A DNA stretch of 64,000 bases from a virus, in IMG/VR virus record IMGVR_UViG_3300027969_000039, positions 124,001-188,000 of that record; one strand, given 5' to 3'. Positions 34,046-50,239 of this stretch are shown piece by piece. The notes below the pieces were generated by a model. It did not search any database. It saw only the letters and a program-made list of their open reading frames with translations, and had not been told where the DNA came from. Within the stretch, counting starts at the first letter, position 1; each line of letters opens with the position of its first letter. Both the position numbers and the translations under genes were made by a program.

Positions 34046-34081
34046 GGATTCCCCCTTTGTTGTCTGTATTTATTGTCATAA

Positions 34082-34103
34082 TAGTGAAATAAAAATTTCA
34101 CTA
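34082..34103. promoter_or_regulatory. 22-base palindrome between divergent genes
   Basis: TAGTGAAAT (34082-34090) and ATTTCACTA (34095-34103) flank AAAA in a perfect inverted repeat. It lies between the divergent starts 34045 and 34125 and overlaps the CTAAATA box at 34101-34107. An operator is likely; a terminator is not, since neither gene ends here. Confidence 0.6.
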
Positions 34104-34107
34104 AATA
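34101..34107 (+). promoter_or_regulatory. CTAAATA box
   Basis: CTAAATA lies 18 bases before ATG 34125, with TGGGGT between as ribosome site, and overlaps the palindrome at 34082-34103. Confidence 0.45.
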
Positions 34108-34124
34108 GTAAAATGGGGTAAACT

Positions 34125-34736
34125 ATGAAAGAAATACTAGAGACATTAAGAGTGCAACGCTGGGACGATCATCGCTATTATCATCACAGCAGGATAAATC
34201 AATTTTTGCATTTAATTAGTGCATTATCATTCATAGTAGCATATGCTTATCTATTCATTGATCCCGTAATTAGTGCTTACATCGCGTGGTTTATCTCAAT
34301 GACTACAAGACAAGCAGGACATTTCTTCTTTGAACCCAAAGATTACGACACATACAATCAGGCCACACAAGATCATAAAGAGGCTATCAAGATTGGATAC
34401 AATCTCAAACGCAAACGAGTATTGATCGCTTGCTGGTTGGCTGTGCCGTTGCTGGCATACTTTGATGCGGCATTGTTTAACTTTGTGATGCCAGACGCTG
34501 CACCAGACACACTAATAGATAGGATTGGTTGGGGTTGGTTATGGTTAGGATTAGCAGCAGTTGTGTTTAGAATGATACAACTTACTGCTATTCAAAGCCG
34601 CAAAGTAGCACTAGTATGGTGCTTAAAGATAATGACAGATCCATTCCATGATGCTGTCATCTATCGCAAGAGTCCATTATATCTGATGCGTGGGCAGTTG
34701 ATTGATCCTGACTTGCGTCAAGATTATGAAGATTAA
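34125..34736 (+). CDS. Multi-pass membrane protein, 203 residues
   Basis: The protein begins with a His-rich amphipathic region (WDDHRYYHHSRINQFLHLIS), has about four membrane helices (about 27-45, 47-60, 106-125, 137-160) and conserved charged phrases (TTRQAGHFFFEPKDYD, QDHKEAIKIGYNLKRKRVL). The HH/Q...GHFFFEP pattern resembles membrane proteins related to lipid metabolism (Mpo1/DUF962-like or desaturase-like) but the match is uncertain. It converges with four-base overlap on the lipid glycosyltransferase gene, so a role in the same membrane remodelling is possible. Confidence 0.65.
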   Translation: MKEILETLRVQRWDDHRYYHHSRINQFLHLISALSFIVAYAYLFIDPVISAYIAWFISMTTRQAGHFFFEPKDYDTYNQATQDHKEAIKIGYNLKRKRVLIACWLAVPLLAYFDAALFNFVMPDAAPDTLIDRIGWGWLWLGLAAVVFRMIQLTAIQSRKVALVWCLKIMTDPFHDAVIYRKSPLYLMRGQLIDPDLRQDYED

Positions 34737-35731
34737 AGCGGAGTAAGATTGTCGCGGAATATCTTCCAGGCTCTCTCCCAACTCCAACGCTGGCTACCTT
34801 CTAATACTCTATCTCTATCTAATTGTAGGCAACCAGTTATAGCATCAGCTAGGTTCTCATTCACAAATCCAGTGACACCTTGCTCAACAACATCTAATGG
34901 TCCTAGCACAGGGTATGCTGCTACAGGAGTGCCGCAGGCCATGGCTTCAATCATCACAATGCCAAATGTTTCCCACCGTGAAGGAAACACAAACACATCA
35001 GCATCAGCATAGCATTGTGCTAGAGCGAAGCCGGTCTTGAATCCTTTGAACTCCACATCAGGATATAGTTTTTCCAGTCTAGCACGATCCGGCCCGTCAC
35101 CTACTAATACTTTGCGAGCACCAGGATAATCCAAACTGCAAAACGCATCCAGATTCTTTTCTATGCTGAGTCTGCACACACACAACAGCACAGGACCGGT
35201 GCCTCTGCTGCCGCGATAACCGGGATTAAATATGCTTCGGTCAACGCCGCGGGTCCATGAGTTGATCTCGCCCCAGAAGCCATGTTCTTTCAGTTCCTTC
35301 ACCATACTATCTGTAGTAGTCAATACACGACCACTATGTTTGTGAAACCATCTCACATATTTCCAAGTTATAGATTGTGGTATCCTTAGATACTTATGTA
35401 AGGCTTCAGGATACTTTGTATGATAAGCAGTATTATACCTACGATAGTGCCGGTCAAGATAAAATCTAGCGTAGAGACCAAGAGGACCCTCTGTGGCGAT
35501 GTGTATATAATCCGGAGCCACCGCCCTAATCTTCTCCCCAATCTTCCAGGGAATCGAAATTTTAACTTCACTGTAGCCTGGGCAATCAAAAAATAGGAAC
35601 TCCATGGGAGTAAGGAAAACAACACGATAGTCGTCCAGAACCGCACACGCCTCAATATTCTTATATGTAGTGACAACGCCATTTATTTGCTCTGGTAAGT
35701 TATCCGTTATTATCAGTATCGTCTTGATCAT
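34733..35731 (-). CDS. agt: GT4 glycosyltransferase, likely diacylglycerol glycosyltransferase (Agt)
   Basis: The 332-residue GT-B enzyme starts with KTILIITDNLPEQINGVVTT (acceptor-side Gly loop) and has the GT4 signature RWETFGIVMIEAMACGTPVA with the EX7E pair. Its gene overlaps plcP by 32 bases. In phosphate-starved marine and soil bacteria, plcP and agt form a pair: PlcP releases diacylglycerol from phospholipids and Agt adds a sugar to make glycolipids. By this context the enzyme probably glycosylates diacylglycerol. The exact sugar cannot be read from sequence. Confidence 0.82.
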   Translation of the reverse strand: MIKTILIITDNLPEQINGVVTTYKNIEACAVLDDYRVVFLTPMEFLFFDCPGYSEVKISIPWKIGEKIRAVAPDYIHIATEGPLGLYARFYLDRHYRRYNTAYHTKYPEALHKYLRIPQSITWKYVRWFHKHSGRVLTTTDSMVKELKEHGFWGEINSWTRGVDRSIFNPGYRGSRGTGPVLLCVCRLSIEKNLDAFCSLDYPGARKVLVGDGPDRARLEKLYPDVEFKGFKTGFALAQCYADADVFVFPSRWETFGIVMIEAMACGTPVAAYPVLGPLDVVEQGVTGFVNENLADAITGCLQLDRDRVLEGSQRWSWERAWKIFRDNLTPL

Positions 35732-36473
35732 TTTCTCTAGTCCATGTAACTATTTCCCACTTACCATCATGATGCTCTACCAATGCTGTGCATGACTCTA
35801 CCCAGTCACCGTCGTTCATGTAAGTGATTCCATCTATATCTTTGATTTCAGCATGGTGAATATGTCCACATATAACCCCATCAAAGCCTCGCTTCTTACA
35901 GTACTTAGCGAGGTTGTGTTCAAAGTGAAAAATAAAATCAACAGCTTTTTTCACACGCTGTTTCAAATACTGACTAAGACTCCAATAACCAAATCCCATC
36001 TTATGTCTTATCCAATTGAATCTGCTATTCCATGCTAGGATAGTATCGTATGCATAATCTCCTAAGAAACTTATCCAAGGTGCTAGTCTAGTTATACCAT
36101 CAAACAAATCTCCATGCACTACAAGATAATGCTTGCCATCTGCACCTATATGTTCTATCTGATTGTGTATCTCAACGAGTCCAAAACTGAATCCATATGG
36201 AATCATCGGGCGTAGAAATTCATCGTGATTACCAGCAACATATATAACTCTTGTTCCACGTTTAGCGTGACCAAGAACACGACGGACTACATTAGTGTGA
36301 CTCTGCTTCCAACGCCATTTATTTTGTTGGATACGCCATGCATCAATTATATCCCCTACTAGATATAGTGTATCGCATGAGTTATGCTTTAGAAAGTTGT
36401 TGAGTTTGTCAGCTTGACAATCTTTGGTTCCTAAATGCACATCAGAGATAAAAATTGATCTATATGTTTTCAT
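35700..36473 (-). CDS. plcP: PlcP-type phospholipase C (metallophosphoesterase)
   Basis: The 257-residue protein has SDVHLG (10-15), LVGDIIDAW (38-46), AGNHDEF (80-86), VHGDLFD (119-125) and CGHIHHAE, plus NDGDWVESCTALVEH. These phrases match PlcP of Sinorhizobium and relatives, which strips head groups from phosphatidylcholine and phosphatidylethanolamine under phosphate starvation, rather than LpxH of lipid A synthesis, although automated tools often call it UDP-2,3-diacylglucosamine diphosphatase. It overlaps the glycosyltransferase gene and follows pstS, supporting lipid remodelling. Confidence 0.85.
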   Translation of the reverse strand: MKTYRSIFISDVHLGTKDCQADKLNNFLKHNSCDTLYLVGDIIDAWRIQQNKWRWKQSHTNVVRRVLGHAKRGTRVIYVAGNHDEFLRPMIPYGFSFGLVEIHNQIEHIGADGKHYLVVHGDLFDGITRLAPWISFLGDYAYDTILAWNSRFNWIRHKMGFGYWSLSQYLKQRVKKAVDFIFHFEHNLAKYCKKRGFDGVICGHIHHAEIKDIDGITYMNDGDWVESCTALVEHHDGKWEIVTWTRENDQDDTDNNG

Positions 36474-36488
36474 TATTATTATTCTAAT

Positions 36489-36510
36489 AAAAAAGAGCCT
36501 TTCGGCTCTT
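36489..36510 (-). terminator. Intrinsic terminator/attenuator between pstS and plcP
   Basis: AAGAGCC and GGCTCTT form a seven-base stem with a TTTC-type loop, followed on the minus strand by six T residues. It lies between the pstS stop and the plcP start, so plcP-agt would need read-through, or partial termination sets the ratio. Confidence 0.8.
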
Positions 36511-36555
36511 AGTGCTGGTTACGAGTTCCAGCCTCCTCTCTATCTTGAGGTCGGT

Positions 36556-37551
36556 TTAAAATAATCCTAGTTGTTTCCAATCAGAACGAATCTTAGCTTT
36601 GACTGCTGCCGGTAATGCAACATAGTCTAACTCATCTGCGGCTTTGTCGCCATTATTGAAAGCCCAATCAAAGAATGTTAGAGCAGTTTTAGATGCAGCA
36701 ACATCACCTGGCTTTACATAAACAAGAATGAATGTAGCACCACTGATAGGCCATGCTTCTTTGCCTGCTTGATTAGTCAATATCTGATAGTAACTCTTGT
36801 TCCAGTCAGCGTTAGCAGCGGCTGCTTTGAATGCATCTTCTGTAGGTGCTACCCAATTGCCTGCTGCATTCTGCACATTGACCCAGTTCATCTTGGCTTG
36901 TTTTACATAAGCATATTCAACATAGCCCAATGCCCCCGGAAGTTGGCGAACCATAGCAGAAACGCCTTCGTTACCCTTACCACCTGCTCCTGTTTTCCAA
37001 CTAACAGCAGTGCCTTCACCGATTGTATCTTTGAACTCTTTGCTGACTTTGCTCAAGTAGTTGGTCCAGATGAATGTTGTGCCACTTCCATCTGCACGGC
37101 GAACCACTGTGATAGCTTGATCGGGCAATGCTAGTGACGGGTTCAATGATTTGATAGCAGCATCATCCCAACGGGTGATCTTGCCCAAGAAGATATCAGC
37201 CATGACTGCACCTGTCAAGCGTAGTTGTCCGGGCTCAATTCCTTTGAGGTTGATTACCGGAACAACTCCACCAATTGCTGTAGGAAACTGAAACAAGCCT
37301 GATGCTTGAAGTTTGTCATCGGTGAGTGGCATGTCACTTGCACCGAACGTGACGGTCTTTGCTTCAATCTGCTTGATGCCTGCGCCTGAACCAACTGATT
37401 GATAGTTGATCTTGATGTTGGTAGACTTGTTATATTCACTCGCCCACTTTGCATATAACGGAGCCGGGAATGTTGCCCCGGCTCCTGTAATCTCTTGTGC
37501 TGATGCAGCGAATGCTATCACTGCCAATAATGTTGTAAACAGTTTTTTCAT
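36556..37551 (-). CDS. pstS: Periplasmic phosphate-binding protein PstS
   Basis: The 331-residue protein has a signal peptide (about 1-18), GAGATFPAPLYAKW with the phosphate-binding Thr, SVGSGAGIKQIEAK, FGASDMPL, RADGSGTTFIWTNYL and the C-terminal FFDWAFNNGDKAADELDYVA, all typical of PstS. It would capture phosphate for the host PstCAB transporter. Start 37551 follows AAGGAG. A PHO box lies 32-49 bases upstream. Phage-borne pstS is well known in cyanophages; here it leads a lipid-remodelling pair. By eye less AT-rich than its neighbours, in line with host origin. Confidence 0.95.
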   Translation of the reverse strand: MKKLFTTLLAVIAFAASAQEITGAGATFPAPLYAKWASEYNKSTNIKINYQSVGSGAGIKQIEAKTVTFGASDMPLTDDKLQASGLFQFPTAIGGVVPVINLKGIEPGQLRLTGAVMADIFLGKITRWDDAAIKSLNPSLALPDQAITVVRRADGSGTTFIWTNYLSKVSKEFKDTIGEGTAVSWKTGAGGKGNEGVSAMVRQLPGALGYVEYAYVKQAKMNWVNVQNAAGNWVAPTEDAFKAAAANADWNKSYYQILTNQAGKEAWPISGATFILVYVKPGDVAASKTALTFFDWAFNNGDKAADELDYVALPAAVKAKIRSDWKQLGLF

Positions 37552-37566
37552 GTAATCTCCTTGTGT

Positions 37567-37600
37567 GTTACACAAATATTTAGTGACATAATTGTGACAG
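37567..37600 (-). promoter_or_regulatory. PHO box and promoter of pstS
   Basis: On the minus strand two seven-base direct repeats, CTGTCAC (37600-37594) and ATGTCAC (37589-37583), are separated by AATT, the exact PhoB box layout (7-4-7). A -10-like TGTAAC (37572-37567) lies ten bases beyond. This implies induction by host PhoB during phosphate starvation. Confidence 0.75.
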
Positions 37601-37658: not shown

Positions 37659-38558
37659 TTAGAAATTGAATTCTACGCCTACACCGTATTGATTAATATC
37701 AGTAGCAGCATCTAGGTAACTCCAACGAGCATTGAATGTCAATGCTTTGTTCATCGCATAGCTTACACCCAAACCACGACCGGTCACGCTAGTGTTAGTC
37801 TGACCATATGTACCTTGAACTGCAAAACGATCACCGATTGCTTGGCTGATACCAACGCTAGAACCTGTGGTGCTTACATTAGATACCTTGTCATCGCTAT
37901 ACATTCCGAACACTGTAGTTCCAGTACTAACCAATTTGTATTTCACACCAACGATAGTGCTGAGACTGGTGCTGCTGTCATCATAACGAGCGACTGTAGC
38001 AGACATAGGTCCCAAAGTGTAGCTGATGCTACCAGTCTGAACATTAGTAGTTCCAGCAGTTTCGCTATTAGCCATCACATATTGTCCTGTGAAGCCAGCG
38101 ATACTTGCTGTGTTCACGAACAAACCATTTTGCAAACGACTGCCTTGTGCAGAGTGAATGGTAGCGGCAATAGTGCCATACGCATTGTCAAATGCGTCAT
38201 AGTTATCCAACACACGAACTACACTGTGCTTGTCACGACCCATGCCTAAAGAACCTAAATTATTGCTCAAGCTAAAGAGTGAAGTACGATCACCTAAAGT
38301 GGTAGCACTTGGTGCGTCCATTGCTACGCCAGTTTCGATGATAACGGCAGCGGTGATTCCATCACCAACATCACTAGAGGCTTTTACACCTAAGCGGCTT
38401 GAGTCATTGGTCAACCGAGTGAGGGCACTAGCGGTACCAGCTGTGTATGATTCTTGATACTCACGTACTTTGCCATAGACGCTGACTTGGGGAGCGGTTT
38501 GTGCTAGCACAAAACCTGAGGCCAATGCTAGGGCCAAGAGTAAAGCATATTTCTTCAT
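37659..38558 (-). CDS. Outer-membrane porin (Burkholderiales general-porin type)
   Basis: The 299-residue protein has a signal peptide (MKKYALLLALALASGFVLAQ), an opening strand APQVSVYGKVREY, RLGVKASSDVGDGITAAVII with the eyelet-loop GD region, MGRDKHSVVRVLDNYDAFDN and a C-terminal beta signal ending in Phe (YGVGVEFNF). Such porins are about 350 residues in betaproteobacteria, so some loops are shorter. It would add an outer-membrane channel during infection, maybe for phosphate or as receptor masking. Promoter TTGACA-17-TATTAT precedes it. Confidence 0.88.
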   Translation of the reverse strand: MKKYALLLALALASGFVLAQTAPQVSVYGKVREYQESYTAGTASALTRLTNDSSRLGVKASSDVGDGITAAVIIETGVAMDAPSATTLGDRTSLFSLSNNLGSLGMGRDKHSVVRVLDNYDAFDNAYGTIAATIHSAQGSRLQNGLFVNTASIAGFTGQYVMANSETAGTTNVQTGSISYTLGPMSATVARYDDSSTSLSTIVGVKYKLVSTGTTVFGMYSDDKVSNVSTTGSSVGISQAIGDRFAVQGTYGQTNTSVTGRGLGVSYAMNKALTFNARWSYLDAATDINQYGVGVEFNF

Positions 38559-38691: not shown

Positions 38692-38715
38692 AAAAAGACA
38701 CCTAAGTGTCTTTTT
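38692..38715. terminator. Bidirectional intrinsic terminator after pqqA
   Basis: AAAAAGACAC (38692-38701), loop CTAA, GTGTCTTTTT (38706-38715): a ten-base stem with A and T runs on both sides. It ends the pqqA unit and isolates it from the porin promoter. Confidence 0.85.
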
Positions 38716-38730
38716 TGGTTAATATGTGAA

Positions 38731-38805
38731 TTAACGATTAGCAATATACATGGTAATTTCAAAACCGAAACGCATATCGCTTGCTTGAGGGGTAGTCCAT
38801 TTCAT
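38731..38805 (-). CDS. pqqA: PQQ precursor peptide PqqA (24 residues)
   Basis: From ATG 38805 to TAA 38731 the peptide begins MKWTTPQASDMRFGFEITMY and ends IANR. This matches PqqA in length, in the MxWxxP start, and in the FGFEITMY core with the Glu and Tyr (E-x3-Y, residues 16 and 20) that PqqE cross-links to build pyrroloquinoline quinone. A good ribosome site (AGGAG) lies before the ATG and a terminator after the stop, so it is a separate unit between porin and tmRNA. No pqqB-E is visible; none of the radical SAM genes here has the PqqE layout, so host PqqB-E would process it. PQQ serves periplasmic alcohol and sugar dehydrogenases, for example in methylotrophs. Confidence 0.9.
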   Translation of the reverse strand: MKWTTPQASDMRFGFEITMYIANR

Positions 38806-38912
38806 AATTGTTCTCCTATATCAAATTGACATTGTATATATCGTTTATATGTGTTGCCATAACCTAAATAACATAGTGAAAAGTATGAATCTTTATTAGT
38901 GTTACTACTAAT

Positions 38913-38934
38913 AAGAAACCCGCCGAAGCGGGTT
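38913..38934 (-). terminator. Intrinsic terminator of the tmRNA gene
   Basis: On the minus strand AACCCGC, TTCG tetraloop, GCGGGTT, then TCTT. It closes the tmRNA gene. Confidence 0.9.
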
Positions 38935-38935
38935 C

Positions 38936-39220
38936 TGGTTGTTTCTTTTATACAGTAAGTCCTACTGCACCTTAGCTTAAGCAGCTAAAGAATATAACTC
39001 ATCGTTTGCAGTTATGAAATTTGCTTGATTAACGGTCATCGCCTACCGTGTTGCCGTCTCTACTATCTACCTCTGTCGAAACCAGGGCAGGCCCGTCAGA
39101 AGCATACTCCTACAGATCGAAACTGATAAAGATAAGTGCGTACACCTATCCGAGTGAGTATGCTTATGGTGGACCTGGCGGGAGTCGAACCCGCGTCCAG
39201 AAGTCCTTCGCTTTGAAGGG
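38936..39220 (-). ncRNA. ssrA: Permuted (two-piece) tmRNA
   Basis: On the minus strand the acceptor piece comes first: T arm CGCGGGTTCGACTCCCG and acceptor end CAGGTCCACCA (CCA ends at 39167). Then a spacer with a ten-base hairpin (39156-39165 with 39100-39109), then the coding piece from 39094, GGGCCTGCCCTGGTTTCGAC. GGGCCTG pairs with CAGGTCC to rebuild the acceptor stem, and CAGAGGT in the coding piece pairs with ACTTCTG of the acceptor piece (helix P2). The tag frame 39009-38977 encodes ANDELYSLAA then stop. The circularly permuted order is known in alphaproteobacteria, some cyanobacteria and some betaproteobacteria. The outer ends are approximate. tmRNA rescues stalled ribosomes and tags products for ClpXP, both subunits of which are encoded in this window. 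Confidence 0.93.
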
Positions 39221-39243
39221 ATTACAACAATAACTTCTATTTA

Positions 39244-39387
39244 TCACCAAGTTTTCTTAGCGATCCAATGTTGGATTTCTTGCACCCGCCATGCTAGTCC
39301 CCAAGGCAGTGTGAAAAATATCTTCTCACCACTAGGAGTATACATGGTCCGACCATCACTGTCAACCCCCATCAATCCTATAAACAT
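39244..39387 (-). CDS. Small hypothetical protein, 47 residues
   Basis: ATG 39387 follows a very strong ribosome site (AGAGGAG). The product (MFIGLMGVDSDGRTMYTPSG...) is hydrophobic at the start and ends in WRVQEIQHWIAKKTW. It overlaps the upstream zinc-ribbon gene by ten bases. Function unknown. Confidence 0.6.
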   Translation of the reverse strand: MFIGLMGVDSDGRTMYTPSGEKIFFTLPWGLAWRVQEIQHWIAKKTW

Positions 39388-39722: not shown

Positions 39723-41930
39723 TTATACACTTTTAAATTCTAGTTTGTCAAATTTAATGGGTGTATAATGTTTTGGAGATGTAGTATGTGAATTAGGAAC
39801 AGCTACGTTATATCTTTCAGGATTTGCCCATGAACCAGTATCTTGCCATTTATGTTTAAATGAGAAATCAATTGTACTATTTAAATGTCTTTCTTCTGCA
39901 ATTAACTCCATGAATTCTTCGTGATTTCTGCCACCGTCTCCCCACTTTGGTTTAGCTAGTTTTCTAGCACGAATGGATGCATTAGATTGTTGTCTAGAAT
40001 AATCTTGTGCAAAAAACGGAGATTTTGCCGATAAAGGATCTACTGGATCGATAATAGTGACCGGTTGTTGATAGTAATAATCAAAATCTGCTTCCCAATT
40101 ACCTTCATCATCTATTGTAAAATTATGATTAGCCCAATAAGGGCCGGCATTTCTTTCACCAAATTCTATCATATCTAAATCTTGATCAAATTTAATTGTA
40201 GCAGTAAATCCTCCTCGTGTACGCCATAGTATTCTAAACAATGTAAATATTTCATTTACTAAACTATCAGCAAAGGGATTGATGTCAGGATGTATTATAT
40301 TGTAATCAAAGTTTTCATATTCAATTTCTTTTTGCATTGTAGGATCATCAAACACAATTTTATAATGATGCATTGGCAAATTACCACGCTGCGGGATTGA
40401 AACTGATTTTTCAGTTAACAAATGCTGCAAGAATACTGCAAATACTTTCATCCTAACCATGACATGAAATTTAGAAAGTTTGAAATCTTTAGTTATCCAT
40501 CCACCTGCATACTTGTGTGCTAGTAAATTAAACTTATCAGGATTTTGTCCAACAATAGTATCCATACCTAAACCAAATCCAAATCCAGCAGCAATATTAG
40601 CTATGTTGTTATTTCTATTACGCCATAAAAAAGTCATTGTATCTGCAAAATTTTGATATGATTCTGTTGGGAACCCTACTATCCAATTGGTAAAAGCATT
40701 TACTCCAGTTTTCTTCCCATCTATAAAGTTTTGTTCCATTTCAGCAATAGTAACACCTTTGTCAATATCATCTAGTACAGGCTGACTTCCAGACTCTATG
40801 CCATAGTTTAACATATGACAACCTGAATCAGCTAAATCTTGATAGAATGCTAAATCCATTCGTCCATCACATCTTGCATATCCAGTCCAATGAATTTTCA
40901 TACCTTTAGCAATGACTCCTTTGCAGAAGGCTCTAAGTTCATTTAGATTTCCATTTACCAAACTATCAATAAACCAAACTATGTCAGTTCCTTTTTCATA
41001 GTATAATGTTTCTATTTCTTTTAGAATATCAGTAGCCATGCGTTGACGATATTTCCAAAAATGTGTTTCTTCACAAAAGGTGCATTTTGCAGTACAACCT
41101 CTACTCAGTTCACTATTAACTCCATTTGGAAATTCATATTCATTGAAATCAAAATTAGAATAATCAGGCATAGGCAAGTCATTCAAATTTAATCTTTGTT
41201 CTTCAGGTTGTGCTAGCTTTTGAACCTTGTCGTGAATTATTCCGTTTTCAATTTCTTCTAAAATTTCTAAAAGAAGTAATTCACCTTCCCCATTGATAAC
41301 ATAATCAAACATATTATCATCTTCTCCACTCCAAGCATGTGGTTCTTGGCAAGGTCTAATATTAGGACCACCTACTAGTATTTTAATATTTGGCAATCTT
41401 TCTCTTAATTTTTTCACCATATACTTAACTGGTTCTGCATTTGTATAGTACATAGTAAATCCTATAACGTCAGGAGGATTTTTAACAATCTGTTCTATGT
41501 ATTTGTTTAATAAAATGCTCAGATGCGGATGTATATCACTATGGTAGTCTTTTGCTAACCATTTCCAATCTCTTGCGCCGTCCCACGGGTCGAAATCAAT
41601 AAGTCCATCATTTCGCCATTTGTGAGATAAGTTATATGCCTTTACATTCAAATCAATACAATTAGATTCATATCCAGCGCCTTTTGCAACCGCAGACAGT
41701 CTTGCAAGATTGAACGGTGGAAACATTGGTGCCCATTCTGGACAAAGTATTAATAATAACTTTGTTTTTCTATACGCATAGTTGATATCAATAGTAGTTA
41801 CATTTTTTTGAACTTTAGTTTTTGCATAAGGTGCAATAGCTTGCAACATAGCCAGATGCTTAATATCAGCGTCAGGCTCTAGTGGTCTTGATTCCACTAT
41901 CTTTTTTTTATATTGATATAATTCACTCAT
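39723..41930 (-). CDS. B12-binding-type radical SAM protein (735 residues)
   Basis: An N-terminal cobalamin-binding-like domain (KLLLILCPEWAPMFPPFNLA, DVIGFTMYYTNAEPVKYMV, KILVGGPNIRP, VINGEGE) is followed by a radical SAM core with CTAKCTFC (CxxxCxxC, about 280-287), WFIDSLVNGN, YGIESGSQPVLDDI and NWIVGFPTE. The C-terminal 250 residues are unrecognised. B12 radical SAM enzymes often methylate unactivated carbons or act on lipids, sugars and peptides; the substrate is unknown. It overlaps the start region of the repeat protein upstream by eight bases. Confidence 0.85.
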   Translation of the reverse strand: MSELYQYKKKIVESRPLEPDADIKHLAMLQAIAPYAKTKVQKNVTTIDINYAYRKTKLLLILCPEWAPMFPPFNLARLSAVAKGAGYESNCIDLNVKAYNLSHKWRNDGLIDFDPWDGARDWKWLAKDYHSDIHPHLSILLNKYIEQIVKNPPDVIGFTMYYTNAEPVKYMVKKLRERLPNIKILVGGPNIRPCQEPHAWSGEDDNMFDYVINGEGELLLLEILEEIENGIIHDKVQKLAQPEEQRLNLNDLPMPDYSNFDFNEYEFPNGVNSELSRGCTAKCTFCEETHFWKYRQRMATDILKEIETLYYEKGTDIVWFIDSLVNGNLNELRAFCKGVIAKGMKIHWTGYARCDGRMDLAFYQDLADSGCHMLNYGIESGSQPVLDDIDKGVTIAEMEQNFIDGKKTGVNAFTNWIVGFPTESYQNFADTMTFLWRNRNNNIANIAAGFGFGLGMDTIVGQNPDKFNLLAHKYAGGWITKDFKLSKFHVMVRMKVFAVFLQHLLTEKSVSIPQRGNLPMHHYKIVFDDPTMQKEIEYENFDYNIIHPDINPFADSLVNEIFTLFRILWRTRGGFTATIKFDQDLDMIEFGERNAGPYWANHNFTIDDEGNWEADFDYYYQQPVTIIDPVDPLSAKSPFFAQDYSRQQSNASIRARKLAKPKWGDGGRNHEEFMELIAEERHLNSTIDFSFKHKWQDTGSWANPERYNVAVPNSHTTSPKHYTPIKFDKLEFKSV

Positions 41931-44900
41931 ATATATTTTTAAATTTTTCTTTTAACCAAACCCAATCATAGCTTAGTCGTAATTGTGTTAAGTCACCGTT
42001 GACTTGTTCATAATATTGTACAGCATGTTGGGCACCTTGTAAACTATATTCGGCAAAGTCACCAATTGCTGTTGTTAGCCATGTATTTAATCGTATTTCA
42101 TTTTCTTCCGTTTTGGATGCTTTTAACTTAATACATTCACGGAAAGCTGTACGCCATGCATCCCACTCACTACTGTTATACATACCAATACCACAATTAA
42201 CAGGAACAACTTCATGCTCACTATCCATTGTAAAGTCTAACCCAGTACCAAAGTTCTCTAATGTAAGTTTTTTGTTGTTAGCAACGATAGCTTGATGACC
42301 ATATACTAACCCGTTCACTGGATTGGTAGCATGAAATATATAGTGCTTAGGTATCTGTAATCTGTCCGGTTGCCAGTTAAAATCAAACTTTGCTGATACT
42401 TTTAATTTAGCGTTTACTAAAAAATACCATGGTGTATTGCTACTATTTGCCGCAGCGTGTTGACTTTTTACACGACCATTTATACCGTCTATTCTAGTAA
42501 TTTTGTTTGGTAATCCTTGTGTTATCTTTAATAGATGTTCGTAATTTCTATCAGCACTAGTTTCACCGTTACTAAAGAACACAATGTCCAATGGGTTAGA
42601 TTCTATAAGTTTATTATTCTTAATAATGTATGGATAATCGTATAACTCTTTCTTTACATACTGTTTAGCTTCTTTTGGAACTATAATTCTTGTTCCACCT
42701 GTACTAGTAATAGTAATATTTTTAGTTTCATTGCTCCATAGATTCATTGGTTCAACATCAACGGCATTGATGTTTTTATTATCTTCAGTCACAAACACAG
42801 CGTATGGAAAATTAAAATCAGTATTTACGCTAGAAGCATGTGTATCATTTTCTGTAATAATGATTGGAGCCGGCAATCGGTTTACTCTTTGATGTTGATT
42901 ATAGTTAATCTTCCCATACTCTTCCAAAGAGTTCATATTATCAATCAATGTTCTAAGTTTATTAACATCAATTAAAAATGTGTCACCAAACTTTTGCCTA
43001 TCGCTAGGAAATACATGTAAGTGTTCTTTAGCAAATGGGTCGCAAATATAAGTAAAATCAAAATCTTTATAATCACATACTGTACTAGCTACCCACACAT
43101 AATGTTCTTTTTTTACTGGGAGTTTATCTAGCATACTCTTAAAAGTATTCAAATAACTAGTTTCATACTTAATAATTAAGTTATTGATATTAGACAAGTC
43201 TTTATTGTCATGGTCGATATAAACTATATCATACAATACATTAGACGCTTTGGCTTTTATAGTTTTAACAAAATTCAAGTTAGAAAGATGTTCAATAATT
43301 TTTATATATTTGGTATCTTGCGGGAATGTTTCTTTATTAACTAAGTAAGTGGTACCCCAATGACTCCACTGAGTGCCGAACACATGCACCATCTTCATTT
43401 GCCATGGGTTAGGATAATATTCAAAATCAAAATCAGTGTAATCTAATTCACTATTGAGTATCCAACATAAATTACTGGTAGCACGATTGATGCAGCGATT
43501 TATTGTATCGACCCAACTGTTTAAATATCTTGTCTTTATTATATTTGGGAATCTAATCTTAAGTTTTTCAAATCTAGTTTGTGATTCAATATTACTTCTA
43601 TCAACAAAGAACATATCAATTTTATTTTTTATTTGTTCTTCTACCCAATTAAACTCAGTATTTCCTCTGAGCCACATTACAGAGTTTACTAAAAAAGTTT
43701 GTGTTTTTGTGTTTTCACTTGAACCAAACACTTGAATATACTGTGACTGCTCAATACTAGGTTTCCAATCAAAATTAAAATTAGTATAATCTATGTGAGG
43801 ATTTAATGCCCAAAATATTTCGTCAGGATGTTGTTTAATCAAATCTTCTAATGAAGTGGTCAACAAATATTTAGGATAAGATTTTTCAATTTCAATTGGC
43901 TTTTCTAAAACTATTCTTTCCATATACACTGATTCACCAGTGTTATCAGGGGTCAAATATCTAGGACCGTCATCCCTATCTAATATTGTACCAAATCTAT
44001 AAACAAACGGTGGGCTGGTATCATCGGGATGCCAGCTGAAATCAAAGTTACTAACATCTATACCATCAGATACTTTCCAATTAACCATTGTAGCTAATCG
44101 CACAGATTTTATATCATCTATATATTTTATTTCAGTTGCATCTTCAACTACATATCTTGGGCCATTTGTTTTTTGATGTTGTGTTCCAAATTGGTATATG
44201 TATGGTTTTTCATTAGTGTTGGGGTGCCAGCTAAAATCAAACTGACTAATATCAATAGTATTTGGAATGATCCAATTTGGTGATATTTCTGTGGTAACCA
44301 CTGTTGCCCTTAAGGTGTCTATATATTTAATTTCAGATGCGCCTTCAACTTCATATCTCAATCCACCTGTACTTTGATGCTGTGTTCCAAATTCATATAT
44401 TAATGGAGGGTCAGTATCATCAGGGTGCCATGAGTAATCAAAATTATCAATAGGAAGAAGTTCTTTCCAGTTTTTTTTATTAGGCAATCTTTTTGCTTTT
44501 TGAACGCTTACATATTTTATTTCAGTGGCATTTTCAACTATATATTTTGGTCCACCTGTCTTTTGATGTTGTGTACCAAATTGATATATGTATGGGGGTG
44601 CATCTGGGTGGGGAACCCATGTAAAATCAAAATTTTCTGTGTCTATGTCAGACGGTATGCTCCAGTTATTTTTATTTGCTTTGGTACATGCTTTGATATC
44701 TTCTACGTAACTAAATTGTGTAGCATCTTTAACTACATATTTTGGACCACCGCGGTTATTCCATATAGTAGCAAATTCGTAAATATATGGTGGACTAGTT
44801 GGATTAGGTCTCCAACTGAAATCAAACTTAGTAGCATCAATATTATCAGGTATTTCCCAATTAGTTTGATCAGGCAATAATTCAACTTCATCGAACATAT

Positions 44901-45984
44901 ATTTTCGTTTAGTTGCCCCTGGACAATAATAAGCTAATACAGGTTCAACCGCTGCTTCATTCCACTTGCTGCCCCATACATACACAAACGGAGGTTCGGT
45001 ATCATCTGGGTGCCATGAGTAATCAAAATTAGTTACTGGTAGTATTTCTTTCCAGTTTTCCCTATTAGGCAATCTTTTTGCTTTTTGAATATCTATATAT
45101 TTTATGTCTGTGGCATCTTTAACTATATACCTTGGCCCACCTGTCTTTTGCCATTGAGTACCAAATTCGTATATATATAGAGGACTAGTTGGATTAGGTC
45201 TCCAACTAAAATCAAATTCAGCAGTGTCAATGTTATCAGGTATTTCCCAATTAATTTTATTAGGCATCAAGTCTAATAAAGTATCAAGATATTTTCTGTT
45301 AGTTGCGTTAGGACAATAATAAGCTAATACAGGTTCAACCGCTGCTTCATTCCACTTGCTACCCCATACATACACAAACGGAGGTTCTCTCGGGTCAGGT
45401 CTCCATGACAAATCAAACTTAGACTTATCAATAGGTATTATTTCTTTAAAATTTTTGCTGGGTAATAATTCAACTACTTGATCCATATACTTACGATCAA
45501 TATCATGCGAATAAGGAGCATGATATTCTAGTACTGGTTGTAATTCTACCGGATTCCATTTATTACCCCATACATATACATATGGAGGGCTAGATGGATC
45601 TGGATGCCAACTGAAATCAAATTTAGTTTCATCAACTAAATCTAGCAATACCCAATTGTCGTTTTTTTCGTTTTTTCTTTTTAGTGGATCAACATCAGCA
45701 CGATATATAATTATTTCACTATATTGTTTAGGGCATAACCATGTGCCACTATCTTTTTGATGAAAGCTAGGCCATACATTGTTATGTTCTTCTGCCCAAA
45801 CATCCTCATCGGGCAAGAATTCAAAGTCAAAATCCCAATCAAAATTACGATAATCACAATGTTCGTTGATTATCCAAAAATGTTCCGTGGTACATTGATT
45901 TCTAGCATCTTCTATTGAAGTTGCAAATCTTTCTCTTGGGTGAATATTGGGTTTAGAGCCGTAATAAAAGACATCTCGTAGCAT
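41923..45984 (-). CDS. 1353-residue repeat protein of the glycan-modification island
   Basis: About nine tight copies (positions about 100-680) of a 55-60 residue unit carry FDFSWHPDxxxPPYIYxFGTQ, ATEIKYID and RLPNKxNW, preceded and followed by diverged copies (for example FDFEYYPNPWQMKMVHVFGTQ). The C-terminal 200 residues (DIVFFSNGETSADRNYEHLL, ITRIDGINGRVKSQHAAA, PWYFLVNAKLKVSAKFDFNW) match the product of 57610-58563, which carries a DGD-type glycosyltransferase motif. It is therefore a GT-A-like protein with multiplied, probably non-catalytic, sub-domains, perhaps a scaffold or glycan-binding ruler. A TTAAATA box ends five bases before ATG 45984. Confidence 0.75.
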   Translation of the reverse strand: MLRDVFYYGSKPNIHPRERFATSIEDARNQCTTEHFWIINEHCDYRNFDWDFDFEFLPDEDVWAEEHNNVWPSFHQKDSGTWLCPKQYSEIIIYRADVDPLKRKNEKNDNWVLLDLVDETKFDFSWHPDPSSPPYVYVWGNKWNPVELQPVLEYHAPYSHDIDRKYMDQVVELLPSKNFKEIIPIDKSKFDLSWRPDPREPPFVYVWGSKWNEAAVEPVLAYYCPNATNRKYLDTLLDLMPNKINWEIPDNIDTAEFDFSWRPNPTSPLYIYEFGTQWQKTGGPRYIVKDATDIKYIDIQKAKRLPNRENWKEILPVTNFDYSWHPDDTEPPFVYVWGSKWNEAAVEPVLAYYCPGATKRKYMFDEVELLPDQTNWEIPDNIDATKFDFSWRPNPTSPPYIYEFATIWNNRGGPKYVVKDATQFSYVEDIKACTKANKNNWSIPSDIDTENFDFTWVPHPDAPPYIYQFGTQHQKTGGPKYIVENATEIKYVSVQKAKRLPNKKNWKELLPIDNFDYSWHPDDTDPPLIYEFGTQHQSTGGLRYEVEGASEIKYIDTLRATVVTTEISPNWIIPNTIDISQFDFSWHPNTNEKPYIYQFGTQHQKTNGPRYVVEDATEIKYIDDIKSVRLATMVNWKVSDGIDVSNFDFSWHPDDTSPPFVYRFGTILDRDDGPRYLTPDNTGESVYMERIVLEKPIEIEKSYPKYLLTTSLEDLIKQHPDEIFWALNPHIDYTNFNFDWKPSIEQSQYIQVFGSSENTKTQTFLVNSVMWLRGNTEFNWVEEQIKNKIDMFFVDRSNIESQTRFEKLKIRFPNIIKTRYLNSWVDTINRCINRATSNLCWILNSELDYTDFDFEYYPNPWQMKMVHVFGTQWSHWGTTYLVNKETFPQDTKYIKIIEHLSNLNFVKTIKAKASNVLYDIVYIDHDNKDLSNINNLIIKYETSYLNTFKSMLDKLPVKKEHYVWVASTVCDYKDFDFTYICDPFAKEHLHVFPSDRQKFGDTFLIDVNKLRTLIDNMNSLEEYGKINYNQHQRVNRLPAPIIITENDTHASSVNTDFNFPYAVFVTEDNKNINAVDVEPMNLWSNETKNITITSTGGTRIIVPKEAKQYVKKELYDYPYIIKNNKLIESNPLDIVFFSNGETSADRNYEHLLKITQGLPNKITRIDGINGRVKSQHAAANSSNTPWYFLVNAKLKVSAKFDFNWQPDRLQIPKHYIFHATNPVNGLVYGHQAIVANNKKLTLENFGTGLDFTMDSEHEVVPVNCGIGMYNSSEWDAWRTAFRECIKLKASKTEENEIRLNTWLTTAIGDFAEYSLQGAQHAVQYYEQVNGDLTQLRLSYDWVWLKEKFKNIYE
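43960..45640. repeat. Tandem coding repeats in the 1353-residue protein gene
   Basis: Near-identical segments of roughly 160-220 bases recur; for example the stretch reading ACAATAATAAGCTAATACAG near 44925 and 45312 is identical in both places and continues identically for about 70 bases. The pattern indicates recent duplication or gene conversion. Confidence 0.8.
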
Positions 45985-45988
45985 CTTA

Positions 45989-45995
45989 TATTTAA
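45989..45995 (-). promoter_or_regulatory. TTAAATA box 5 bases before a start codon
   Basis: TTAAATA on the minus strand ends at 45989; ATG begins at 45984 with no ribosome site between. Confidence 0.45.
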
Positions 45996-46006
45996 ACAGT
46001 TACTGT

Positions 46007-47074
46007 TTATGTGAAATATTTTTCAATGTTTTTAGTTGTGCTATAATCAGTTGACGAATGGAAATGCTGTTTGTTATGTTCTACAATTTCTTTTATATTA
46101 GTTTGCCATTCTATCCATTCTTCAGCTGGTTTAGAAATTAATCTTTGTATTTCTTTAAAGACTGCTATCAATCTTTCTTCATTATTTTCAATAGAATCAT
46201 ATGATTCATTAATGAATGGACTAAATGTTTTGTACCCTATTTTTCTCAGAACTTTTAATGTGTGGGGTCTACCTAACATAACAAAGGGATGCATACAACC
46301 TAAACATTTGAATGTTTTTTCAGTTATAAAAGTTGAATCAACTCCATAATTTGGTTCAGTATAAAACAATGTCTCAGTTATTATACTGAAATAACTATCA
46401 TCAAAATATTTTATGTCATCAGGTATAATATCAATTGGATTACTTCTATCTGTAGTGATATTAAGCCTTAAAGGAAATTTATTACGATTCTTTTTTATAT
46501 TAACATATTCATCAGATAATATATCCCAATTGAGTCCTGGCCCTTCAAATGAATAATATCCTTTGTCTATGTAGGAATACATCAATTCTAATAAATCTAG
46601 TCTATGCTTTCTAGGCATTTTATTAAAACATAGAAATACTTTTTCTTTTTCTTTTATATTATATTCAACTGGCAAAGAACTTAATATTGAATAATTTAAA
46701 CTAAACCAATGTGCGTTAACACATATTACTGAAATTTTGTTTTTCCAATTGTATTGTTTATATATTTTTTCATACACTTCTAGCCCATCTGATGCACCAC
46801 ATACATAAATTAAATCTTTAGAATCTATATTATTTTTTAGTAAACTAGCAATATCTTGAATTTTTTGAAGCATCTGCAATACTATTCCTTCACCTATCAG
46901 ATAAAATAAAAACTTAGTTTTTCCTTCTTTTTTTGCTTGTAGTATGTCTTTTACAATTATTTCATTGCTAGTAGTAGGAAATGCGGTATGTAAGTGCGAA
47001 TCAATAATATGTATATTATCTATATGATTTTGTAATTCTGGCCATATTTTTAGTAATAGCGTAGTAGGGGTCAT
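46007..47074 (-). CDS. Fucosyltransferase-like glycosyltransferase (355 residues)
   Basis: The C-terminal part contains FITEKTFKCLGCMHPFVMLG followed by KIGYKTFSPFINESYD, a pattern of phage proteins related to GT10/exostosin-like glycosyltransferases (EKxxKxxxxxxPFVxxG). The N-terminal half has a Rossmann-like start (IHIIDSHLHTAFP). The product of 50231-51424 is a paralogue. It likely transfers a sugar, acceptor unknown. It overlaps the sugar dehydrogenase gene by four bases. Confidence 0.65.
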   Translation of the reverse strand: MTPTTLLLKIWPELQNHIDNIHIIDSHLHTAFPTTSNEIIVKDILQAKKEGKTKFLFYLIGEGIVLQMLQKIQDIASLLKNNIDSKDLIYVCGASDGLEVYEKIYKQYNWKNKISVICVNAHWFSLNYSILSSLPVEYNIKEKEKVFLCFNKMPRKHRLDLLELMYSYIDKGYYSFEGPGLNWDILSDEYVNIKKNRNKFPLRLNITTDRSNPIDIIPDDIKYFDDSYFSIITETLFYTEPNYGVDSTFITEKTFKCLGCMHPFVMLGRPHTLKVLRKIGYKTFSPFINESYDSIENNEERLIAVFKEIQRLISKPAEEWIEWQTNIKEIVEHNKQHFHSSTDYSTTKNIEKYFT

Positions 47075-48267
47075 TTAAATTTCCTAGTATTACCATAATG
47101 CTTAACTACATGTCCTAACGTTGGAAGCATTTCGCGCCATGGATCAATAAAAGTATAAATTCGTTTTGTTTCTTTTTCCCAATCAATATCTCTTACCCAT
47201 TGCTCCCAGTAACCAATTAAGTACACCTCTGTACTATCTGTTTTTAAATCTAGATCACCGGTATTAACATCATAGTAGTTAACTATTCCGCCGTACTGTT
47301 CTATATAATGTCCTACTAACATACTACCACTTCCGTTAGTATACGGCACACTAGGCTTATATGCTTTTCCTATAATAGTAACATTCTTGCCGTACTGTAA
47401 ACATTTTTTAGCCATGCGATCTGCTTGTACTTCTCGTGCTTTCATTATAGCATCAAATAAGTCATACCCTAAATCTAATCTATCGGCTAGATAACGCAAT
47501 GCAATATTATCCCTTGGATGACATGCACCACCATCTCCCATGCCAGCTTTCATGTATGCAGGCCCAGTGATTCTATGTGTACTTTTTGATAATGCGTTAG
47601 TTACAACATCTACATTAATATTGCCATTTGTTTCAGCAACATCTTGTATCATATTAACTAATGCAACTTTTGTAGATATAAACGTATTATAGAAAATTTT
47701 AATAGACTCGGCTTCATCCCATGTTCCTACTTCATACCTAGGATCATTCTCTATAAACACTTTGTAGAACTCAATCAATTCTTTTGCGTCTCCAGTAATA
47801 CTACCATCATCAGTGCCAATAATAACCATTTCAGGATTTACCATATCCCACTTAGTAGTACCCATAGCTATAAGATATGGGTTGTAAATAAATCTAGCAT
47901 TAGTGATACAAGGTTCTAATATATTACGAACTGTCCCCGGTAACACTGTACTAATCAATACAACTAATTGGTTTTTATTTACATACTTATTAACTTCCAA
48001 TAAGATGTTAGTAACTATAGAATAGTCAAAATCTTTATTAGGCAAATGACTAGTTGGAGTCTCGCCGCCATATATGGGGTCATGCGCGGTGGGTGCTGCA
48101 ATAAAGATAATATCTCTACCTTGTACTGCTTCTTCAATTGTTTTTTTCATAGGAAAAGCAGGATTTCTGTTCTCTACATCATAACCTACTACATCATAAT
48201 GTTGTGCCATAACTTCAGCACACTCTTGCCCTAATTTACCTACCCCAATCATTGATACTGTTGTCAC
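47071..48267 (-). CDS. Nucleotide-sugar dehydrogenase (UDP-glucose/GDP-mannose dehydrogenase family)
   Basis: The 398-residue protein has the NAD site GVGKLGQECAEVMA (8-21), ISTVLPGTV, IYNPYLIAMG, the central helix region WDEAESIKIFYNTFISTKVA, the active-site Cys in GDGGACHPRDN and the UDP-binding end domain (IIGKAYKPSVPYTNGSGSML). It should oxidise a nucleotide sugar to a uronic acid for use by the neighbouring glycosyltransferases. The active-site loop reads CHPRD where CxxKD is usual. The start is GTG 48267 with AAGGAA before it. Confidence 0.85.
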   Translation of the reverse strand: MTTVSMIGVGKLGQECAEVMAQHYDVVGYDVENRNPAFPMKKTIEEAVQGRDIIFIAAPTAHDPIYGGETPTSHLPNKDFDYSIVTNILLEVNKYVNKNQLVVLISTVLPGTVRNILEPCITNARFIYNPYLIAMGTTKWDMVNPEMVIIGTDDGSITGDAKELIEFYKVFIENDPRYEVGTWDEAESIKIFYNTFISTKVALVNMIQDVAETNGNINVDVVTNALSKSTHRITGPAYMKAGMGDGGACHPRDNIALRYLADRLDLGYDLFDAIMKAREVQADRMAKKCLQYGKNVTIIGKAYKPSVPYTNGSGSMLVGHYIEQYGGIVNYYDVNTGDLDLKTDSTEVYLIGYWEQWVRDIDWEKETKRIYTFIDPWREMLPTLGHVVKHYGNTRKFK

Positions 48268-48305
48268 AAAATTTCCTTATTTAATATAATGGTTAAAATT
48301 ATTTA

Positions 48306-48312
48306 GTAAATA
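48306..48312 (+). promoter_or_regulatory. GTAAATA box 5 bases before a start codon
   Basis: GTAAATA on the plus strand, four bases before ATG 48317, no ribosome site. A TTAAATA (48279-48285) serves the divergent GTG gene. Confidence 0.45.
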
Positions 48313-48316
48313 ATAG

Positions 48317-50239
48317 ATGAAGAAAAAGAAAATTAGTTTCGTACAACCCAATTTTCAGCAAGGACCCAAAGAGTTTAATGCTTATTATTTGCCATATTCA
48401 GCCGGGGTGATTTTAAGTTACGCATTGAATGATGAAAAAATCAAAGAATCTTGGAAATTACATCACTTAGTATGGCGCAGGGAACCTATTGATGAATTAG
48501 CATTAAAACTCAGCACCAGTGACCTAGTAGCATTCTCGACTTATGTCTGGAACCATCGTTACAATTATAAATTAGCACATATGATAAAGGTGCTTAATTC
48601 AAAGTGTTTAATTGTTTTTGGTGGACCAGAACCTGCTATTGAAGATACTAAACTGTTTGAGAAAGAACCGTTTATGGATTTAGTAATCAAGATGGAAGGA
48701 GAAGTGACATTCAAGCGTATATTAGAAGATTTTGATTCGGACTATACGCACATACCTGGATTGTTAATTAACTCTCCTAATGGAATGATTAATACCGGAG
48801 ATCCTAACCGCATAAATGAGTTAGATGAGATTCCTAGTCCATACTTGACAGGTATATTTGATAAAATAATTTCAGAAAATCCTAACATAATATGGAACGC
48901 TACACTAGAAACAAATCGCGGTTGTCCCTATGCATGTACATTTTGTGACTGGGGAAGTCTTACCTATAACAAAGTAAAGAAGTTTGATATGCAAAGGGTA
49001 TATGATGAATTAGATTGGATTGGAGAACATTGTGGATTCGTCACTATCACCGATGCTAACTTTGGAATGTTTGTAGAGCGTGACAATGCTATTGTAGATA
49101 AATTAATTGAAGTGCAAAAGAAGTGGGACAATTTAAAAAGTTTCTCAATGACATGGGCAAAAAATCAAAAGAATGAAGTAGTTGATATTGTCAAAAAACT
49201 AATAACTGAATCTCCTAATTTTGGGCAAGGACTTACCGTTAGCGTACAGAGCATGGATCAAGATGTACTAGAAAACATAAAACGCAGGAATCTTGACCAA
49301 CACAAGATTGACGAAATCTTTGCACTATGTGATAAGAATAATATACCAGTATATACAGAATTGATATTAGGTTTACCCGGTGAGACAGTAGAATCATGGA
49401 AAAATGCTTTCTGGAAAATATTCCGTGCGGGCAATCATAATGGAATTAACATTCTACAATGTCAATTACTAGAAAATGCTGAGATGAATTTATTGCAGAA
49501 AAAACTATACAAGTTAGAATCAGTTGCTGTATATGATTATATGAGTGGTAGTTACGGTGACAAAGATTTAAATGAAAGCATTGATGTAGTAGTATCAACA
49601 AAAACTATACCGCATGAATTAATGTTAGATACTCTAGTATGGTCTAGTTTTATACAAACATTTCATATCAATGGGTTGACAACGTACATAGCTAGATACT
49701 TAGCTAAACAAGATATAGACTATTCTGTGTTCTATGAAAATTTATATGAATGGATTAAAAAAGATTCATGGTTTAGATTACAATTCGCAGATACACGCAG
49801 TTATTTTGCTAACTGGATGACCAATGGTAGAATCGATCACCCTAAGATTGGTAACATTGAAGTATTTGGGTGGAACCTTATGCACAGAACTACTCTGTAC
49901 ATGGTCAAAGACAAAATGATTAATTATGTATTTGAATCATTAGATGAATTTTTGCGAGAAACTTATAATATTGAATCTCCTGTTAGAGAACAACTATTAC
50001 AATTCCAAAGAAACTATGTTATTGATTACAGAGACCTAGGTGCTCTGCCACGATATCAAAGTTTTGATTATGATTTTTTAGGATATATTCAAGACAACAG
50101 TAATATAAAAAATAGTGCAATTTATAAATTTGACACTACTGAAGATAAAGATATGAGCCAAGACCGTTTCTTAGAAAATATGTATTTTGGTAGAAAAAGA
50201 AACTTTGGAAAAACTATTATTTCTCGTGCATCAGTTTAG
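48317..50239 (+). CDS. B12-binding-type radical SAM protein (640 residues)
   Basis: The N-terminal B12-binding-like domain (ISFVQPNFQQGPKEFNAYYL, LVAFSTYVWNHRYNY, LIVFGGPEP, KMEGEVTFK) precedes the radical SAM core CPYACTFC (about 199-206), TDANFGMF, VSVQSMDQDVLENIKR and LILGLPGET. The C-terminal 250 residues match no known domain. This layout is typical of cobalamin-dependent radical SAM enzymes of unknown substrate. It is the only plus-strand gene of the island and converges with a nine-base overlap on the next gene. Confidence 0.85.
   Translation: MKKKKISFVQPNFQQGPKEFNAYYLPYSAGVILSYALNDEKIKESWKLHHLVWRREPIDELALKLSTSDLVAFSTYVWNHRYNYKLAHMIKVLNSKCLIVFGGPEPAIEDTKLFEKEPFMDLVIKMEGEVTFKRILEDFDSDYTHIPGLLINSPNGMINTGDPNRINELDEIPSPYLTGIFDKIISENPNIIWNATLETNRGCPYACTFCDWGSLTYNKVKKFDMQRVYDELDWIGEHCGFVTITDANFGMFVERDNAIVDKLIEVQKKWDNLKSFSMTWAKNQKNEVVDIVKKLITESPNFGQGLTVSVQSMDQDVLENIKRRNLDQHKIDEIFALCDKNNIPVYTELILGLPGETVESWKNAFWKIFRAGNHNGINILQCQLLENAEMNLLQKKLYKLESVAVYDYMSGSYGDKDLNESIDVVVSTKTIPHELMLDTLVWSSFIQTFHINGLTTYIARYLAKQDIDYSVFYENLYEWIKKDSWFRLQFADTRSYFANWMTNGRIDHPKIGNIEVFGWNLMHRTTLYMVKDKMINYVFESLDEFLRETYNIESPVREQLLQFQRNYVIDYRDLGALPRYQSFDYDFLGYIQDNSNIKNSAIYKFDTTEDKDMSQDRFLENMYFGRKRNFGKTIISRASV

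Follow-up and report, generated by a model that had tools for sequence, protein, structure and literature searches.

Methanol dehydrogenases depend on PQQ as their cofactor, and each molecule of PQQ consumes one whole PqqA peptide, while PqqB, PqqC, PqqD and PqqE are reusable catalysts. Why should a phage carry a gene for the peptide and none for the enzymes that act on it? This question is raised by a stretch of viral DNA of 64,000 nucleotides (the window; bases 124001-188000 of a 303,057-bp IMG/VR record), in which an earlier note, made from the letters alone, had placed a pqqA gene at 38731-38805 without giving its strand. The coordinates are correct and the gene lies on the minus strand, running from 38805 to 38731. 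Read in this direction, the translation is MKWTTPQASDMRFGFEITMYIANR followed by a stop, 24 residues in length, and the plus strand of the same interval gives an unrelated frame. In the profile search that had been suggested, the peptide scored 40.4 bits against Pfam PF08042 (cut-off 21.1), and it reached 38.1 bits against the NCBIfam PqqA equivalog TIGR02107 (E 9.2e-10, cut-off 20). It shares with the family its length, the Trp-x-x-Pro leader, the Arg-Phe-Gly-Phe-Glu-x-Thr-Met-Tyr core and the short tail, and the Glu-x-x-x-Tyr pair of the cross-link is present in the core GFEITMY. A chance ORF was ruled out, since both curated profiles match and the core GFE[VI]T[ML]Y did not occur in 20 six-frame shuffles of the window. 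A PDB search using the peptide gave no match. The record contains a single copy of PqqA, and what sets it apart from the rest of the family is that it is phage-borne, remote from any pqqB-E and arranged as a single-gene unit beside a tmRNA. As part of the explanation developed below, it is probable that the gene is a functional copy of a host pqqA.

The ribosome site and the terminator described for this gene were both recovered. The Shine-Dalgarno sequence AGGAGA (38812..38817, minus strand) is found 6 nt 5' of the ATG, and a terminator hairpin with flanking A/T tracts (38692..38715, minus strand; 10-bp stem, -11.3 kcal/mol, z -4.25) lies just 3' of the gene. Upstream, on the same strand, there is a complete permuted tmRNA of the betaproteobacterial type (38912..39282, minus strand; RF01850 with 155.6 bits; ARAGORN; tag ANDELYSLAA), which is context and a clue to the host and has no part in PQQ function. 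Since this tmRNA has a terminator-like hairpin of its own (38935-38916, minus strand), and pqqA has both a Shine-Dalgarno sequence and a downstream hairpin, a separate pqqA transcript is predicted and likely. The sole promoter-like site between the tmRNA terminator and pqqA, a sigma-70-like candidate at 38831..38860 (minus strand), is weak, and its 9/12 consensus matches are too few to count as functional evidence. The stand-alone transcription unit that had been proposed is plausible, though unproven.

As judged from its gene content, the genome in which pqqA sits is genuinely viral. Its 303-kb record has genes of phage families for a DNA polymerase, a portal protein and a T4-type major head protein, the last being 65-66% identical to its counterparts in jumbo phages, among them PA5oct and Vibrio phage 2.275.O. 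The record is the genome of a freshwater phage, a jumbo myovirus of the PA5oct/T4-head kind. Bacterial contamination of the contig was ruled out by the presence of these portal, major head and DNA polymerase genes and by relatives in many viral contigs. No pqqB-E had been seen in the window, and this holds across the whole record, in which the only candidate for PqqE was a sub-threshold radical-SAM match (25.5 bits versus a cut-off of 381), tblastn with PqqB, C, D and E returned nothing credible and the PQQ_2 dehydrogenase domain was not found. A genetic link of the phage pqqA to pqqBCDE is thus absent; such a link is common for PqqA, though not required. Elsewhere in the window, the interval 39723-50239 encodes a nucleotide-sugar dehydrogenase, two radical-SAM proteins of the B12-binding type (735 and 640 aa) and a protein of 1353 aa for which NCBIfam gave no match. 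The predicted products resemble a methyltransferase or surface-sugar cluster, which is unusual for a phage. The two radical-SAM genes (39723-41930 and 48317-50239) were ruled out as a hidden PqqE, both being of the B12-binding type with best scores to other families.

With respect to the host, a methylotroph-like or other PQQ-making bacterium had been suggested, and the evidence does not point specifically to a methylotroph. The nearest bacterial PqqA is that of freshwater Comamonadaceae, with 20 of 22 aligned residues identical. Because the PqqA differs at only 2/22 residues from this family, the tmRNA is of the beta type and a neighbouring porin is Burkholderiales-like (about 31-38% identity), the host is probably a betaproteobacterium, belonging to the Burkholderiales in the broad sense and not necessarily a methylotroph. 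Homology of the tmRNA, with short matches, and of the porin, with distant ones, supports no finer assignment.

In order to place this gene among known phages, the peptide was compared by tblastn with 50,697 phage records, of which 12 matched. Nine of them are Methylophilales phages that span several unrelated groups, namely Melnitz (four strains), Venkman, P19250A, MEP301, MEP401 and MEP402, and one is an unassigned environmental podovirus from Manatee Spring. The other two, filed as 'Acinetobacter phage MD-2021a', were discarded as misfiled bacterial contigs, the one opened (CAKLQF020000010.1) carrying ppk together with pqqBCDE. Three PqqA queries were used in all, two of them of different type, with E up to 10, and the two further queries returned the same 12 records and no others among the 50,697. 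All six cultured Methylophilales phage species that could be checked carry pqqA. No feature is annotated at the pqqA site in P19250A, MEP301, MEP401, MEP402 or Venkman, and in Melnitz and the Manatee Spring phage the annotation calls there an unrelated ORF of the other strand, so that pqqA is unannotated in every phage record opened, as expected from the remark that gene callers would skip it.

The earlier note knew of no described phage pqqA. One had been described in 2020, in the Lake Baikal phage VP_266, and the same purpose was proposed for it (PMC7678222); pqqA is also among the viral genes listed for reservoir sediment (PMC13188868). VP_266 and the jumbo phage both encode PqqA, but VP_266 has a methanol dehydrogenase and was assigned to Methylophilaceae (PMC7678222), whereas none was found in the jumbo phage and a different betaproteobacterial host is probable. 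In the papers covered on these OM43 phages other than P19250A, PqqA is not mentioned, and the wider pattern appears to be unreported. As far as we have found, what is new about phage pqqA is its presence in all six cultured Methylophilales phage species tested, the precursor-only form, the lack of annotation and the jumbo phage with a probable betaproteobacterial host.

Metagenomic viral contigs were then covered by two scans of IMG/VR. The pattern of the first, GFE[VI]TMY, fixes Glu and Tyr and is so blind to their conservation; it occurred in at least 120 stretches, and all 120 listed are short PqqA frames with the Trp-x-x-Pro leader. The second, a leader-only pattern ending before Glu, leaves both residues free; again at least 120 stretches were obtained, and Glu and Tyr were both kept in 120 of the 120 matches listed, one of which has Cys in place of Thr. 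Combined, the scans gave at least 166 distinct further IMG/VR contigs with pqqA, to which one was added via a capsid search. Thus the Glu/Tyr pair and the reading frame, whose loss in related phages had been named beforehand as grounds against the assignment, are both kept. An SD-like 4-mer is present in the 18 nt upstream of 124 of 128 phage pqqA genes, compared to 20% of shuffles, and a terminator-like site follows 48% of the phage genes versus 3% of shuffles and 75% of bacterial copies. The region upstream of the phage genes folds with a mean z of -1.37, against -0.50 for a same-locus control and -1.49 for bacterial copies; a phage-specific conserved 5' hairpin was considered and rejected, as bacterial upstream regions fold equally well. 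Regarding the enzymes, pqqB-E were found near none of 174 phage pqqA loci, although the same queries detected them at 24-39 of 119 bacterial loci, and PqqE was over its cut-off in none of the 50 larger pqqA records. These results indicate that many phages have an intact PqqA and almost always lack the remaining pathway.

The explanation that we consider probable is that the phage supplies PqqA, the substrate that is consumed, to the PqqB-E of its host. If the phage shuts down its host, the supply of PqqA would be the first to stop, and a single gene of 24 codons would suffice to repair that, the host already supplying PqqB, C, D and E. PqqA made from the phage mini-gene would keep or raise PQQ synthesis after the takeover of host transcription: PqqE with PqqD would cross-link Glu to Tyr in the phage peptide, and host proteases together with PqqB and PqqC would complete PQQ. 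The cofactor would then load host dehydrogenases, which would be XoxF/MxaF in methylotrophs and other alcohol or sugar dehydrogenases elsewhere, and the loaded enzymes could sustain a respiration-linked energy supply in infection. We infer from this scheme that pqqA is expressed in infection, that the phage peptide is processed and that the phage benefits. Raising the precursor supply had already been proposed in the note, and it stands as the best mechanism, the genome being truly that of a phage, devoid of PQQ enzymes, and the peptide a true PqqA that has its Glu/Tyr pair. A similar case is psbA (D1), an auxiliary metabolic gene by which cyanophages provide the fastest-consumed part of a host machine. 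Phage pqqA would follow the same logic, the used-up part being carried by the phage, with the difference that PqqA is a peptide substrate turned into a cofactor, while the psbA product is a protein subunit. Another likeness is found in the orphan pqqA genes of methylotrophs (Methylophilaceae, Methylovorus MP688, M. extorquens), which are solitary, away from pqqBCDE and often provided with their own terminator, and raise precursor supply; these copies, however, are chromosomal and controlled by the host, whereas the present one is borne by a phage.

Several observations on bacteria bear on the demand for PqqA. The number of pqqA copies per genome is 12 in Methylotenera mobilis 13, 9 in Methylophaga muralis and 7 in Methylobacillus flagellatus, and most OM43-clade/Methylophilaceae genomes near 1 Mb have three. 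Three to 12 copies, usually with one of each other pqq gene, have been reported (PMC4109929), and orphan host copies are known (PMC9851590, PMC4109929). In Methylovorus MP688, the availability of PqqA has been reported to be rate-determining (as cited in PMC11317620). A Gluconobacter extract given the PqqA peptide showed a conversion to PQQ of 70-80% (as cited in PMC9851590), and Gluconobacter makes more PQQ when pqqA alone is over-expressed (as cited in PMC7936290). In an OM43 isolate, xoxF is the most abundant transcript (PMC5120137). On the other hand, pqqA was reported to be non-essential for PQQ in M. extorquens AM1, in a work that left the orphan copies out (PMC11317620). Also speaking against the supply of a precursor, only 62 of 300 sampled Burkholderiales genomes contain pqqA, and so does only one of 33 contigs with a related major capsid protein, most of these contigs being fragments.

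The gene content around pqqA in the jumbo phage might suggest another role. At 34733-37575 on the minus strand, genes for PstS (427 bits, NCBIfam), a calcineurin-type metallophosphoesterase and a GT1 glycosyltransferase stand in a row, which looks like a phage-borne phosphate-stress set, possibly for membrane-lipid remodelling of the PlcP-Agt type, a name given here without a curated model. A relative of the phosphoesterase (48%) is found in pelagiphage Mosig. Between this row and pqqA, at 37659-38558 (minus strand), lies a gene for a porin-like outer-membrane protein with a signal peptide, an unusual phage-encoded porin without a match in Pfam or NCBIfam. None of the 50,697 phage records contains a relative, and its best matches are Burkholderiales porins. 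PQQ or PqqA could thus serve the acquisition of metal or phosphate and not energy, either in lanthanide handling or through the acid formed by PQQ-glucose dehydrogenase, which would free phosphate; in the jumbo phage, pqqA and these neighbours would then form one phosphate-stress set. In favour of this, pstS, the porin-like gene and the metallophosphoesterase-glycosyltransferase pair lie directly 3' of pqqA on the same strand, and two related jumbo-phage contigs, L137 and L272, have the glycosyltransferase (65-66%) and the metallophosphoesterase (85-88%) in common with the window, the pair again being within about 2 kb of pqqA. A part of orphan pqqA in lanthanide uptake has also been suggested (PMC11317620). 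However, a terminator lies between pqqA and the porin gene, the order of pqqA relative to the pair in L137 and L272 is different from that in the window, and neither P19250A, MEP301 nor Venkman has such neighbours within 3 kb, save for a phosphodiesterase annotated near the MEP301 pqqA. Moreover, other large pqqA phages often hold the gene in tRNA arrays or beside a tmRNA. We therefore regard a phosphate or metal role as unlikely. Near pqqA, L137 (3674-4138) and L272 (2454-2954) both have an ORF that, judged by eye, encodes a rubrerythrin/ferritin-like protein.

It might also be argued that pqqA is a passive passenger, a host gene that was picked up by recombination, for instance with a tRNA or a tmRNA gene, and that has yet to be lost. 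In the jumbo phage it indeed stands beside a tmRNA, and a tRNA or tmRNA is found within 500 bp of pqqA at 8 of 170 loci. Its distribution in the jumbo lineage is patchy as well: since one of the 33 capsid relatives carries the gene and two large ones, of 223 and 374 kb, are without it, pqqA comes and goes in this lineage, probably with the host, and is dispensable or host-specific. Nevertheless, pN/pS was 0.21 for 154 distinct phage pqqA sequences (0.32 without the core), similar to the 0.25 of bacterial pqqA, and phage pqqA is therefore under purifying selection in many phages. In addition, the frame was intact in all listed matches of the two scans and no broken copies were seen, although both patterns demand much of the frame, and the gene was found in unrelated isolates confined to one host order. 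Because of this selection and host specificity, a passenger is very improbable. Equally improbable is a decoy that, by binding PqqD/PqqE, would block or divert the PQQ synthesis of the host, or that would saturate one of its proteases. A small peptide without its enzymes could by reasoning be a competitive ligand, but a decoy would not need to keep its reactive Glu or Tyr, residues that never vary among the 120 matches listed, and over 22 aa 65 of the 169 phage peptides match a bacterial PqqA exactly.

With the supply of the precursor as the preferred reading, the balance tilts slightly towards a broader claim, namely that a stand-alone pqqA is a near-universal and overlooked gene in phages of PQQ-dependent methylotrophs, gained repeatedly by unrelated lineages, that it marks PqqA supply as a bottleneck of methanol oxidation in infection, and that it has also been taken up by phages of other bacteria that use PQQ, among them betaproteobacterial jumbo phages like the present one. 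If phages commonly supply the PQQ precursor, methanol oxidation may continue in infected cells, with consequences for C1 turnover in lakes and seas. The gene may also provide a handle for host prediction, as PqqA has so far been found in phage records only in Methylophilales phages, one other phage and misfiled bacterial contigs, and the fact that a gene of 23-24 residues escaped standard annotation shows that in some phages common auxiliary metabolic genes can be invisible. The idea is directly testable in cultured pairs, which are Melnitz and Venkman on H5P1, MEP401/402 on FZCC0133, MEP301, and P19250A on IMCC19250.

Two further observations concern the larger pqqA contigs. In four large phages (L026, L063, L079 and L394), pqqA lies inside dense arrays of 8 to 28 tRNAs. 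Finally, a PQQ alcohol dehydrogenase was present in one of the 50 larger pqqA records, a viral contig of 72 kb (L075 / G017) which carries pqqA together with a full dehydrogenase of the methanol type (34049-35731) and is perhaps a relative of VP_266.
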